Assembly (NCBI GenBank): GCA_018064805.1
Contig: JAGHUN010000031.1
Location: 1-60,006 of the forward strand
Length of the DNA stretch: 60,006 nucleotides
Reading direction: 5' to 3'
Source: Candidatus Colinaster scatohippi
Lineage (GTDB): Bacteria > Bacillota > Clostridia > Lachnospirales > Lachnospiraceae
Part shown: positions 56,089 to 60,006 of the stretch, one piece after another
Layout of the letters: every line of letters starts with the position of its first letter
How positions within the stretch are numbered: position 1 is the stretch's first letter
The notes under the pieces: model-generated
Databases searched by the model: none
Seen by the model: the letters and a program-made list of their open reading frames with translations, nothing else
Told to the model about the DNA's origin: nothing
Program-made: the position numbers and the translations under genes

Positions 56089-57144
56089 CTAATAACTATC
56101 TACATATACAGCATTATTTGTTGCATCCTCCCAGGCTCTTACAAAGCTCTCATAAGCCTCCTGCCAGTCCGACTCACTTTCATTTGAGAGAGATGTATCA
56201 ATACTGTAATTCGAATTAATATAATCAGCGATTGCCAGTGTACACTTGTAACTTCCATAGGTGTTGGTATGGCTGCCATCCTTCAAATCTCTGTCAAAAT
56301 CAAAGCCATAATCCTCCGGTCTTGAATACATATCATAGAAATCATACCCATACTCATTTACAACCGAACCTATATAGTGCATATTGCCGAAGTAGTGTGC
56401 TCTGATAAACTGCGGCGTAGCCACGAACAGGGCAGGAATATTATTCTGCTTAAGATATGAAAGCAGATCTCTGAGTACCTCTTCCTGCTCAGTACTTATT
56501 GCCTCCATATAATCATACATATCAGGATCAATTTCCGGTAAGCCTTTTGAAAGCTCCATATATTCGTTTGAGAAAACAGCTCCCTTGTCGGTGTTCTTCA
56601 CTGCATAATTAAACTTTTTAAGTTCATTGGCATCAGCAAACATCTGCCAGTTTGAGTGGAATTTGATTATGTCAAAATAATAGGTATAGCGTTCTTTTTT
56701 ATCATTAACAAGTGCGTTAATTGTCCTGATTCTGTTCGGTGACTGACGCATATTATCAGTTACCTCTCTAATATGTGCCAGGTCCTCCTCCTGCTCCTTC
56801 AAATCCTCTGCAAACATCCTGACTTCAATCACAAAAAGCTGTGGCTTCTGTCTGCCGTAAGCCTCCTTAACCAGATGCTTAATGGACTTTGTCGGCTGAC
56901 TATTGCTCGATAATGGATAAGAAGTTATCCCCGTCTCATGCCACAATAACCCCGGTGAAAAAGAGGCACCTACCGGACTTGCACCTACATAAATTACATC
57001 TATTGAATTTTTATCTTCTGCATAATAGCCCGCAAATCTGTCTTTTACTTCGCCATTTGTACGCACAATATATGTGGAACAACTAAGCAGTATGAAGACA
57101 ATGCACAGGAATATTATTCCCTGAAAAAACTGTTTCTTATTCAC
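56089..57144 (-). CDS. Membrane-anchored SGNH/DltD-like esterase-fold partner of MBOAT
   Basis: N-terminal TM; VIYVGASPVGASFSPGLLWHETG (Ser block); DLKDGSHTNTYGSYKCTLAIADYI (DxxH block). Confidence 0.7.
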   Translation of the reverse strand: MNKKQFFQGIIFLCIVFILLSCSTYIVRTNGEVKDRFAGYYAEDKNSIDVIYVGASPVGASFSPGLLWHETGITSYPLSSNSQPTKSIKHLVKEAYGRQKPQLFVIEVRMFAEDLKEQEEDLAHIREVTDNMRQSPNRIRTINALVNDKKERYTYYFDIIKFHSNWQMFADANELKKFNYAVKNTDKGAVFSNEYMELSKGLPEIDPDMYDYMEAISTEQEEVLRDLLSYLKQNNIPALFVATPQFIRAHYFGNMHYIGSVVNEYGYDFYDMYSRPEDYGFDFDRDLKDGSHTNTYGSYKCTLAIADYINSNYSIDTSLSNESESDWQEAYESFVRAWEDATNNAVYVDSY

Positions 57145-57155
57145 TTCATATCTCC

Positions 57156-58679
57156 TTAGAAGCCCTGATAAATAAATTCTGCAGCACTAAATCCCGGTCC
57201 ATAGAATCCAAGTAAAACTACCCACATAATTAGTCCTATCCAGATTATCCATCTGACCGGCAATGCCCTCTTACCTATTAATGCCCTGACTGTTGTTCCT
57301 TCATTCTTATCTGCTATAACCTGAACAGTTATAAATATCATAAGCGCAACAAGCATAAGCACCCATTCATACCATTCAAGACCAGCTAAAAGTCCCTCGC
57401 AAATAACCGGCTTCCAGCCTTCCTTACTAAAAATTCTTCCCATCATTTTAAGGCTGTCCATAACTGTTAGCGATCGGAACATAGCAAAGGCAACAGTCAT
57501 AAGTATAAATACTTTGATTCGTCCTAAAGTCCTAACAAGTGCACCGTCCTTTTTTAGCTTAAGCAGATCCACCAGCCTGTCGCCTGCAGGCTCCATCATT
57601 TCCTCAAGCACGATGAACAGCCACTGCAGAATACCGACTCCTATTATGTAATGCCATGCTCCACCATGCCAGGTACCGATTACAGTCCATAAGATAAGCA
57701 TCGCAAGATATGTTGTAATCCTTTTGGCTGCCTTTTTGCCAACTTTTTCCTTAAGAGTCTTGGGAAGCTTCATAAAAAACTCTGTACGAAGCAATGGATA
57801 GAATAAATAATTCTTAAGCCACGTACCTAGAGTAATATGCCACCTCTGCCAGAATTCCTGAATGGTAAGTGACATAAACGGTCTCTTAAAGTTCTCCGGC
57901 ATCTTAATTCCAAGCGCCTCAGCTATACCTATCACAATATCCATACAACCTGTAAAATCGGTATATAGCTGAAGTGTAAAGGCGCACATGCCCAATATGA
58001 TATACAGACCGTTATAGTTGTCATAGGAATCAAAAATCTCATTAGCCACCCTGGCAAAACGCTCAGCCAGTACCAGTTTTTCAAAGAAACCCCACAGTAT
58101 TCTCTGGCAACCCCTTGTGAAATTTTCATAAGAAAATTTATGTCCTTCAAAAAGAGTTCCCTTAATATCCGTATATCTCATAATAGGACCAGAGGTCATA
58201 TTGGGAAAAAGAAGGCCAAAGGTCGCTATATGTGCAATATTGGTATCCGCCTCACCCATTTCATAGTAAACATCAAAAAGATATCCCAATAGCGAAAATG
58301 TGTAAAAGGAAATACCGATGGGCACAATTATCATAAACGCTGAAAAAGCACCTGATTGTGCGACATCCTCGCTAAGTCCAAACAAGCTTCTCGGAATGTA
58401 CTTAACCAAAATCAAAAGCGCAACACTTACAATACAACCGATGTAAAGCAGCAGCTTTTTCTTCTTTTTGTTATCCGTTTTACTTATTCCAAGTGCGCAC
58501 AGATAAATGGTAATTATTGTTACAGCCGGATAGACAATAGCTACCGCCGATTGCGCCAGCACATAATATGCCACACTCATTGCAAGCAGAAGCATCCACT
58601 GACAGCGCTTGGGAACAATGTAGTACACCAGAGCGCCTACGCATATGAAGCATAAAAAGTAGAATGATGTAATGGTCAT
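57156..58679 (-). CDS. MBOAT family O-acyltransferase (AlgI/DltB-like)
   Basis: FPNMTSGPIMRYTDIKG; NFKRPFMSLTIQEFWQRWHITLGTWLKNYLFYPL; LWTVIGTWHGGAWHYIIGVGILQW. Confidence 0.95.
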   Translation of the reverse strand: MTITSFYFLCFICVGALVYYIVPKRCQWMLLLAMSVAYYVLAQSAVAIVYPAVTIITIYLCALGISKTDNKKKKKLLLYIGCIVSVALLILVKYIPRSLFGLSEDVAQSGAFSAFMIIVPIGISFYTFSLLGYLFDVYYEMGEADTNIAHIATFGLLFPNMTSGPIMRYTDIKGTLFEGHKFSYENFTRGCQRILWGFFEKLVLAERFARVANEIFDSYDNYNGLYIILGMCAFTLQLYTDFTGCMDIVIGIAEALGIKMPENFKRPFMSLTIQEFWQRWHITLGTWLKNYLFYPLLRTEFFMKLPKTLKEKVGKKAAKRITTYLAMLILWTVIGTWHGGAWHYIIGVGILQWLFIVLEEMMEPAGDRLVDLLKLKKDGALVRTLGRIKVFILMTVAFAMFRSLTVMDSLKMMGRIFSKEGWKPVICEGLLAGLEWYEWVLMLVALMIFITVQVIADKNEGTTVRALIGKRALPVRWIIWIGLIMWVVLLGFYGPGFSAAEFIYQGF

Positions 58680-58700
58680 ATTCTGTGTCTAATCTCCAAA

Positions 58701-58940
58701 CTAAATAAGTGTCTTGATAATATCTACCATTTCGCCAACATTCTTAAAGCCCTGAAGCTGCGCCATGGTGAATTTAATGCCAAATTCGCCTTCAACTGCA
58801 TTCACAAGATTAATATGCTCAAGCGAATCCCAGTCTTCAATATCATCAGCAGTTGTCTCCGCATTTACTTCAATGTCTTCATCATCAAATACATCTCTGA
58901 ATACTTCATTTAATTTTTCATAGATTTCTTCTGTAGTCAT
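58701..58940 (-). CDS. Acyl carrier protein
   Basis: MTTEEIYEKLNEVFRDVFDDEDIEVNAETTADDIEDWDSLEHINLVNAVEGEFGIKF (DSL phosphopantetheine motif). ATG 58940 with SD GGAGG; the supplied ORF extends to 59000. Confidence 0.95.
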   Translation of the reverse strand: MTTEEIYEKLNEVFRDVFDDEDIEVNAETTADDIEDWDSLEHINLVNAVEGEFGIKFTMAQLQGFKNVGEMVDIIKTLI

Positions 58941-58953
58941 ATTAGTTAACCTC

Positions 58954-60006
58954 CTAATTCTCGTTAATACTAATATATTTATTCCTTGGAGCATATTCAT
59001 CTACTGCAAGATGCCATACGCTATTACCCTCGTCATCTGCCTTAACAAGCTCAAATCCCTGCTCCTTATAGAACTCCCTAACCATGTTATTTTTGGCCGT
59101 TGGATAATAGTAACCATAAATGTCCTTAACCGATTTATTATAGCATATTCTCACTACTTCATCCATCAGAGCCACTTCCATATCACGCTTGAGAACCCTG
59201 CAGCTCATAAGCCATAATTCGATATGCATGGCAATATCTTCCTGCCTGCCTATCATCAAGGTAACGACACCATTGTCACCATATTTATCTTCAAGTCGGC
59301 CATACAAAGTTATCCTGTTTTCATCTGTCGCAGCCTCTTCGATCTCGCTCTGAGTATATCTTTTAGTTGTCAGATTAAACTGATTGCTCTTATTGGTAAG
59401 CTGCGCAATCCTTGACATATACATAGGTTCAAATGGCTTAATATCCGCTTTCATCTCAAGCGATTTCAGATATTCTCCATAATCTCCGATACTACTTTCG
59501 GCAGCTGCCCTTGCAACATTTGCCTTATACATATCGTTTCTTTTTCTATCATCCTCCGAAATTGAAGTAACCTCGAAATAGCCCGCATGGTCGATATTTT
59601 TTATATACTGCTCAGGTGTTCCTATTTCCGGAACTGCCACACCTGAATTCTGCTGTCTTATAATCTCTCGCTCAGCCGGATTATCATCTACGAAAACAAA
59701 CGCATCCTCACCTATGTTAATTTCTCTGGCTATATCAGAAAGATTCTTACTCTTCGGATCCCAATTAGCCTTAATTACCAGAAAATCATCCGGCTTAAGT
59801 GTTGAATCAGCACGATTCAGCCCGGCAAGTGCATTATCGATTTCATTTTTGGAATCAATGGTAAGTAACACTCCCAGCTGCTTCTGCGCCTTAATATAAG
59901 CCTGGAATTCACTGTACACCTGACCCATCGAGGTCTCCTGGCCAATTTCAATATTCTCAGGGCCATCATCTCCAACAATTCCACCCCACAATGTATTGTC
60001 AAGATC
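58954..60006 (-). CDS. FkbH-like HAD-IIIC family protein, 5' end truncated by window edge
   Basis: Reading to the window edge gives DLDNTLWGGIVGDDGPENIEIG (HAD motif I); FLVIKANWDPKSKNLSDIAREINIGEDAFVFVDDNPAEREIIRQQ; LTNKSNQFNLTTKRY. Confidence 0.9.
   Translation of the reverse strand, partial: DLDNTLWGGIVGDDGPENIEIGQETSMGQVYSEFQAYIKAQKQLGVLLTIDSKNEIDNALAGLNRADSTLKPDDFLVIKANWDPKSKNLSDIAREINIGEDAFVFVDDNPAEREIIRQQNSGVAVPEIGTPEQYIKNIDHAGYFEVTSISEDDRKRNDMYKANVARAAAESSIGDYGEYLKSLEMKADIKPFEPMYMSRIAQLTNKSNQFNLTTKRYTQSEIEEAATDENRITLYGRLEDKYGDNGVVTLMIGRQEDIAMHIELWLMSCRVLKRDMEVALMDEVVRICYNKSVKDIYGYYYPTAKNNMVREFYKEQGFELVKADDEGNSVWHLAVDEYAPRNKYISINEN

Follow-up and report, generated by a model that had tools for sequence, protein, structure and literature searches.

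Four genes at the end of the contig

The window analysed here is the whole stretch of 60,006 nt from Candidatus Colinaster scatohippi (Lachnospiraceae, order Lachnospirales; contig JAGHUN010000031.1, positions 1 to 60,006). It ends with four consecutive genes on the minus strand that encode, in the order of transcription, an FkbH-type HAD-IIIC enzyme, an acyl carrier protein (ACP), a membrane-bound O-acyltransferase (MBOAT) and a membrane-anchored protein of the SGNH/DltD-like type, separated by gaps of 10, 21 and 11 nt (Table 1). An earlier annotation made from the sequence alone (the first-pass annotation) had described this order and these families, and had interpreted them as a relay similar to Dlt, in which FkbH replaces the activating enzyme DltA and a glyceroyl-type group is delivered. 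The gene order and all four family assignments held in our analysis, with the FkbH gene cut by the contig end.

The visible part of FkbH (350 codons, 5' end lost) exhibits the DxDNTxWGG motif of the HAD-IIIC domain and the C-terminal acyltransferase half, and scores over the curated cut-off of TIGR01686. Active-site alignments were built with relatives from independent loci (46-110 sequences per protein, 32 for the ketoreductase discussed below); for FkbH they display the motifs DxDNTxW and MSCRV(L)KR, and all 87 relatives retain Cys269, which is consistent with glyceryl loading by this enzyme. A search of the same genome located the N-terminal 243 aa of FkbH at the end of another contig, C128 (L003:8537-9364). 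This piece matches PF21211 (FkbH_N), and about 100 identical bases are common to the ends of C128 and of the contig with the window's part of FkbH (C55). In the ACP, W57, D58 and S59 of the phosphopantetheine site are conserved at 0.99-1.00 in 87 relatives.

The closest PDB match of the MBOAT is DltB (6bug, 8jem); its score against the DltB model TIGR04091 is 161.6 bits, under the equivalog cut-off of 375. It possesses both hallmarks of MBOAT-SGNH polymer acyltransferases, the catalytic His and the C-terminal FxYxxF acyl-Tyr motif: H281, H338 and Y504 are invariant in 110 relatives, while F502 and F507 are conserved in 97% and 100% of them. The fourth protein has no family match in Pfam and no meaningful sequence match in the PDB, but its AF2 model (pLDDT 92.3, built on a 28-sequence alignment) was matched by Foldseek to DltD first (6pfx, 3bma; probability 1.00), then to TesA-type GDSL enzymes and PatB. 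The TM-score to DltD is modest (0.39) and therefore indicates a shared fold, not close kinship. The conserved residues G54-x-S56 and D289-xx-H292-x-N294 supply the Ser-Asp-His set (S56, D289, H292) of an SGNH partner.

Recurrence of the gene set and exchange of the activating enzyme

The FkbH-ACP-MBOAT-SGNH order, for which the first-pass annotation had proposed a genome search, recurs, and the linkage of the four genes is more than chance. One set comprised 80 loci from species-representative genomes, selected on MBOAT; FkbH was found in 32 and ACP in 35 of the 42 loci flanked on each side by 7 kb or more. A second set was independent of MBOAT: 296 genomes were drawn evenly from the order and gave 35 strong-match FkbH genes, of which 30 have ACP nearby and 17 have MBOAT no more than 9 kb away, whereas MBOAT density (176 in 132 Mb) predicts about 0.026 per such stretch. 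The median gaps across loci are 13 nt (FkbH-ACP), 15 nt (ACP-MBOAT) and 6 nt (MBOAT-SGNH), and in 35 cases the next gene after ACP is a co-oriented MBOAT, at a distance of no more than 120 nt in 30 of them. Chance adjacency is ruled out by this recurrence together with the short gaps. The binomial figure of 3e-18 for the FkbH-MBOAT linkage exaggerates its strength, since FkbH and MBOAT alike tend to reside in polysaccharide loci, and the weight is put on adjacency and on the draw unselected on MBOAT. In the same phylum outside the order MBOAT occurs at 1 of 8 FkbH loci, and the named cassette loci come mostly from Lachnospiraceae, Butyrivibrio (L058) among them; the system looks centred on Lachnospirales.

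The gene set shares with Dlt (DltA-DltC-DltB-DltD-DltX, D-alanylation of teichoic acid) the relay of activating enzyme, carrier protein, MBOAT and SGNH protein, and its MBOAT and SGNH fold are closest to DltB and DltD, respectively. It differs from Dlt in using FkbH instead of the adenylating DltA, in the predicted acyl group (a non-amino C3 group, lactyl or glyceroyl, instead of D-alanine), in having the FxYxxF motif on the MBOAT itself, in the manner of PatA, rather than on a separate DltX, and in the predicted acceptor, an undecaprenol-initiated polysaccharide instead of teichoic acid. An FxYxxF motif has been demonstrated to act as acyl-Tyr shuttle in PatA and also in Dlt, where DltX carries it as a separate protein (PMC12148441). 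Strict membership in Dlt is ruled out by the lack of DltA in the operon and by the MBOAT score under the DltB equivalog cut-off; the DltA model matches this genome only on contigs C104 and C66, under its equivalog cut-off, with no match on C55 or C128. The O-acetylation systems PatA/PatB and AlgI/AlgJ have the same fused C-terminal FxYxxF motif and a separate SGNH protein, but they are reported to use acyl-CoA and to have no carrier protein, the absence of a carrier being stated for MBOAT/SGNH systems other than Dlt in general (PMC12148441), whereas an ACP and a dedicated loading enzyme are encoded here.

Exchange of the activating enzyme is visible among the related MBOATs themselves. An AMP-binding ligase lies within 6 kb at 12 MBOAT rows without FkbH, and the loci read gene by gene show MBOAT, SGNH and AMP-ligase followed by ACP, sometimes with a decarboxylase dependent on pyridoxal phosphate (PLP) in between. 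In a quick tree of the MBOATs, where the AMP-ligase label was assigned only to rows without FkbH, a clade with AMP-ligase (L032 and five others) is nested in a group of 17 rows that otherwise have FkbH (SH-aLRT 100). The exclusivity of the two enzymes is not strict, both being present at three FkbH-MBOAT loci (L021, L086 and L151). The replacement of an adenylation enzyme by FkbH in a Dlt-like relay, as put forward in the first-pass annotation, is thus supported by the recurrent linkage, by the conservation of the active sites and by the AMP-ligase that accompanies related MBOATs in place of FkbH. Two operons of the order MBOAT-SGNH-AMPligase-PLP decarboxylase-ACP (L056:1620-7058, L078:9968-15473) represent another carrier-dependent variant, possibly delivering a decarboxylated amino acid.

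Loading of an ACP by an enzyme of this kind has precedents in antibiotic biosynthesis: the FkbH homologue Tmn16 forms glyceryl-S-ACP, and the tetronate clusters (Tmn16/Tmn7a, AbyA2/AbyA3) also have a stand-alone FkbH and a stand-alone ACP, although there the glyceryl group is handed to a FabH-like enzyme for formation of the tetronate ring (PMC3625739). A search of the open-access literature for FkbH with MBOAT, DltB or polysaccharide returned no precedent beyond the suomilide/varlaxin nonribosomal peptide synthetase (NRPS) clusters, in which the MBOAT acylates a sugar separately from FkbH, and this absence is not proof; no precedent for the gellan glyceryl transferase was found in the open-access literature either.

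The remainder of the operon and the predicted acyl group

The operon runs past the SGNH gene through six more genes with gaps of 7, -4, 60, 57, 0 and -32 nt (Table 1), and an ABC exporter precedes it on contig C128, ending 2 bases before the FkbH start. The acceptor of acylation is probably an undecaprenol-linked exported polysaccharide, in view of these further genes of the operon and of the exporter upstream.

Table 1. Genes of the operon in the window, in the order of transcription
Product	Position	Strand	Evidence
FkbH-type HAD-IIIC/acyltransferase	58954-60006	-	TIGR01686, 267 bits (cut-off 147), E 1.6e-79
ACP, phosphopantetheine site WDS (WDSLEHINL)	58701-58946	-	PF00550
DltB-like MBOAT with fused C-terminal FIYQGF, putative acyl-Tyr shuttle	57156-58679	-	PF03062
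Membrane-anchored SGNH/DltD-like acyltransferase	56089-57144	-	AlphaFold model and Foldseek
561-aa polytopic membrane protein, putative glycosyltransferase (role inferred)	54396-56081	-	gaps 7, -4 nt; no Pfam match
Sulfatase/phosphoethanolamine-transferase-like membrane protein	52432-54399	-	PF00884, E 2e-8
MaoC-type dehydratase, proposed to act on glyceryl-ACP	51940-52371	-	PF01575
SDR ketoreductase, proposed to convert 2-keto acyl-ACP to lactyl-ACP	51145-51882	-	PF00106
O-antigen polymerase/ligase-like membrane protein	50029-51144	-	length and position; no family match
WbaP/WcaJ-type phosphoglycosyl transferase, predicted to start the repeat unit	48630-50060	-	TIGR03025, 388.6 bits, over cut-off

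Two of these genes, which the first-pass annotation missed, alter the predicted chemistry: a MaoC-type dehydratase and a ketoreductase of the short-chain dehydrogenase/reductase (SDR) family. Both are co-encoded with FkbH and ACP and have intact active sites (D41, N43 and H46 of MaoC invariant in 46 relatives, Y157 and K161 of SDR in 32). According to a passage in PMC4765723 (citing He et al. 2014), DH-KR (dehydratase-ketoreductase) proteins convert glyceryl-S-ACP to lactyl-S-ACP in the FR901464 and lankacidin pathways. The likeness to that lactyl starter is one of enzyme type and role (ACP-bound glyceryl, a dehydratase and a ketoreductase), with the difference that here the enzymes are discrete proteins of a polysaccharide operon whose product is proposed to go to the MBOAT and not to a polyketide synthase (PKS). 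The ester made by the window's operon is most likely lactyl and not glyceroyl, because the operon encodes the pair of enzymes of the type that turns glyceryl-S-ACP into lactyl-S-ACP; plain glyceroyl, as originally proposed, is not the likeliest product here. Of the first-pass interpretation, the principle of a Dlt-like machine fed by FkbH stands, while membership in Dlt and glyceroyl as the likeliest acyl group at this locus do not.

MaoC recurs beside FkbH-ACP in many other loci, and is nearly always joined by a ketoreductase: among 45 FkbH loci with MaoC, 31 have only SDR, 11 only an aldo-keto reductase (AKR), two both and one neither (Fisher p 9e-8), with a median MaoC-SDR gap of -1 nt and 25 of 28 pairs within 120 nt. 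This pairing fits a conversion of glyceryl-ACP via a 2-keto thioester to lactyl-ACP. The FkbH-ACP-MaoC-SDR set is also found without MBOAT: in L103 and L114 it accompanies sugar acyltransferases of the NeuD family, L109 is a locus of the nonulosonate type, and L117 is an NRPS cluster that has a phosphopantetheinyl transferase of its own. In two large PKSs (L155:2292-12209 and L157:2332-12255, both on the minus strand) the N-terminal loading module joins a MaoC-like domain to FkbH and ACP in cis. The set seems to be a transferable unit for making a C3 acyl-ACP. Both N-lactyl (on Rha4N, Fuc3N and Pse) and N-glyceryl (on Qui4N) have been described in polysaccharides of bacteria (PMC9912281).

A large part of the FkbH-MBOAT loci have no MaoC (23 of 67 scorable rows of the MBOAT tree). 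Ten near-complete genomes with MaoC-less FkbH loci have no MaoC relative anywhere in the genome, so that for these ten a MaoC encoded elsewhere is ruled out; in the eleventh (G084) MaoC-SDR is present inside the locus. Glyceroyl is the best prediction for the ester made by the MaoC-less relatives. A pair of sister species illustrates the difference: the loci of G084 and G211 (L089 and L095) are colinear at ~92% identity apart from the MaoC-SDR block, with identities of 98.8% for FkbH, 95.4% for MBOAT and 92.8% for SGNH, and from their gene content we predict lactyl in the former and glyceroyl in the latter.

Weighing the proposed lactyl relay against its alternatives

Taken together, we favour, with moderate confidence, an MBOAT-SGNH acylation machine that depends on a carrier protein, draws on glycolysis and places lactyl on an exported polysaccharide. 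In the proposed mechanism FkbH would dephosphorylate 1,3-bisphosphoglycerate and load D-glyceryl via its invariant Cys onto the phosphopantetheine of ACP, the MaoC dehydratase would remove water to give a 2-hydroxyacryloyl/pyruvoyl thioester, and SDR would reduce the 2-keto group to yield lactyl-S-ACP. The MBOAT would then shift lactyl from ACP onto the Tyr of the FIYQGF motif at its own C-terminus; from there lactyl would pass to Ser56 of the SGNH protein, which would attach it as an ester to the extracellular undecaprenol-made polysaccharide. In relatives that lack MaoC and reductase, the group delivered would be glyceroyl.

Several observations weigh against this scheme. Every chemical step, the identity of the acyl group and the acceptor are inferred, and the FkbH of this genome is seen only as two pieces on two contigs. 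In the window, ~6 kb separate ACP from MaoC and SDR, a stretch occupied by MBOAT, SGNH and two other genes, and at 13 of 88 strong FkbH loci neither MBOAT nor MaoC is in reach. MaoC status changes 15 times along the MBOAT tree and so does not track it, and near-identical MBOATs are found at loci with and without MaoC; the acyl group can therefore not be read from the sequence of the MBOAT. Either the MBOAT is unspecialised and accepts both lactyl and glyceroyl, or the lactyl/glyceroyl prediction is wrong. Finally, ~17 loci have a split transketolase within the cassette, 11 of these with AKR (approximate counts, a TKc match in L092 being probably the housekeeping dxs). The simple lactyl scheme leaves this insertion unexplained, and it hints at an acyl group that is longer or branched, or at sugar chemistry beyond that scheme. 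The split transketolase lies between FkbH and MaoC-ACP in L014, L021, L022, L028, L030, L051, L060 and L072. The window itself encodes AKR (DkgA-like), transketolase N and transketolase C at 14215-16876 on the minus strand, ~35 kb from MaoC; the trio inserted in many FkbH-MaoC-ACP-MBOAT loci (L014, L021 and L051 among others) has the same gene order.

Among the alternatives, the one with most in its favour, which we nonetheless regard as unlikely, is that FkbH and ACP send unmodified glyceroyl through MBOAT and SGNH here too, MaoC and SDR serving another pathway of the locus. The adjacency of the four core genes and the absence of MaoC from a third of the scorable rows and from ten whole genomes would agree with it, and glyceric acid is known as a substituent of polysaccharides (as an amide on Qui4N; PMC9912281). 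However, MaoC and SDR belong to the same gapless operon, they recur adjoining FkbH-ACP elsewhere, and MaoC in FkbH loci comes essentially always with a reductase. Even less probable in our view is that FkbH-ACP, with or without MaoC-SDR, feeds a cytoplasmic sugar N-acyltransferase, while MBOAT-SGNH separately O-acetylates the glycan from acetyl-CoA like PatAB/AlgIJ; fused-tail MBOATs such as PatA do use acetyl-CoA (PMC12148441) and FkbH-ACP-MaoC-SDR does occur beside NeuD-family enzymes, but this is countered by the regular placement of MBOAT directly after ACP, by the pairing of related MBOATs with AMP-ligase and ACP, and by the nearest solved structures being those of DltB, whose acyl donor is a carrier protein.

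3-Hydroxyacyl thioesters are common substrates of MaoC/SDR pairs, and these enzymes might make some other acyl group, e.g. (R)-3-hydroxybutyryl from fatty-acid intermediates, with FkbH loading an unknown acyl phosphate. The transketolase-containing variants do point to other chemistry; nevertheless, we consider this the least probable of the three and very improbable, in view of the co-occurrence of MaoC with FkbH among the loci collected, their fusion in cis with ACP in PKS loading modules, and the glyceryl-to-lactyl precedent described in the cited passage of PMC4765723.

More broadly, we lean slightly towards the view that the lactyl/glyceroyl relay represents a widespread, undescribed carrier-dependent acylation of polysaccharides in Clostridia, which draws on 1,3-bisphosphoglycerate without ATP-dependent adenylation and switches between glyceroyl and lactyl by gain or loss of the MaoC-reductase block. 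If so, many Lachnospiraceae of gut and rumen would bear lactate or glycerate esters on their surface polysaccharides, cell-surface chemistry would be tied to glycolytic flux, and the MBOAT-SGNH relay would have an exchangeable input, which may be an adenylation enzyme, acetyl-CoA or FkbH. FkbH and the glyceryl-to-lactyl conversion would then extend from antibiotic biosynthesis to general envelope biology, and sister species that differ by the MaoC-SDR block make the prediction directly testable.

Elsewhere in the window, the polysaccharide locus encodes two acetolactate-synthase-like enzymes dependent on thiamine diphosphate and a 4-hydroxy-2-oxovalerate-aldolase-like enzyme (27599-29293, 40089-41903 and 43731-45338, minus strand), with two AT3 acyltransferases nearby (36090-37169 and 41948-43717). 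The same genome (G000) encodes six further MBOATs and a DltA-like ligase (the latter on C104, under the DltA cut-off) on contigs C98, C41, C51, C106, C40 and C104, therefore several MBOAT systems coexist in this organism.

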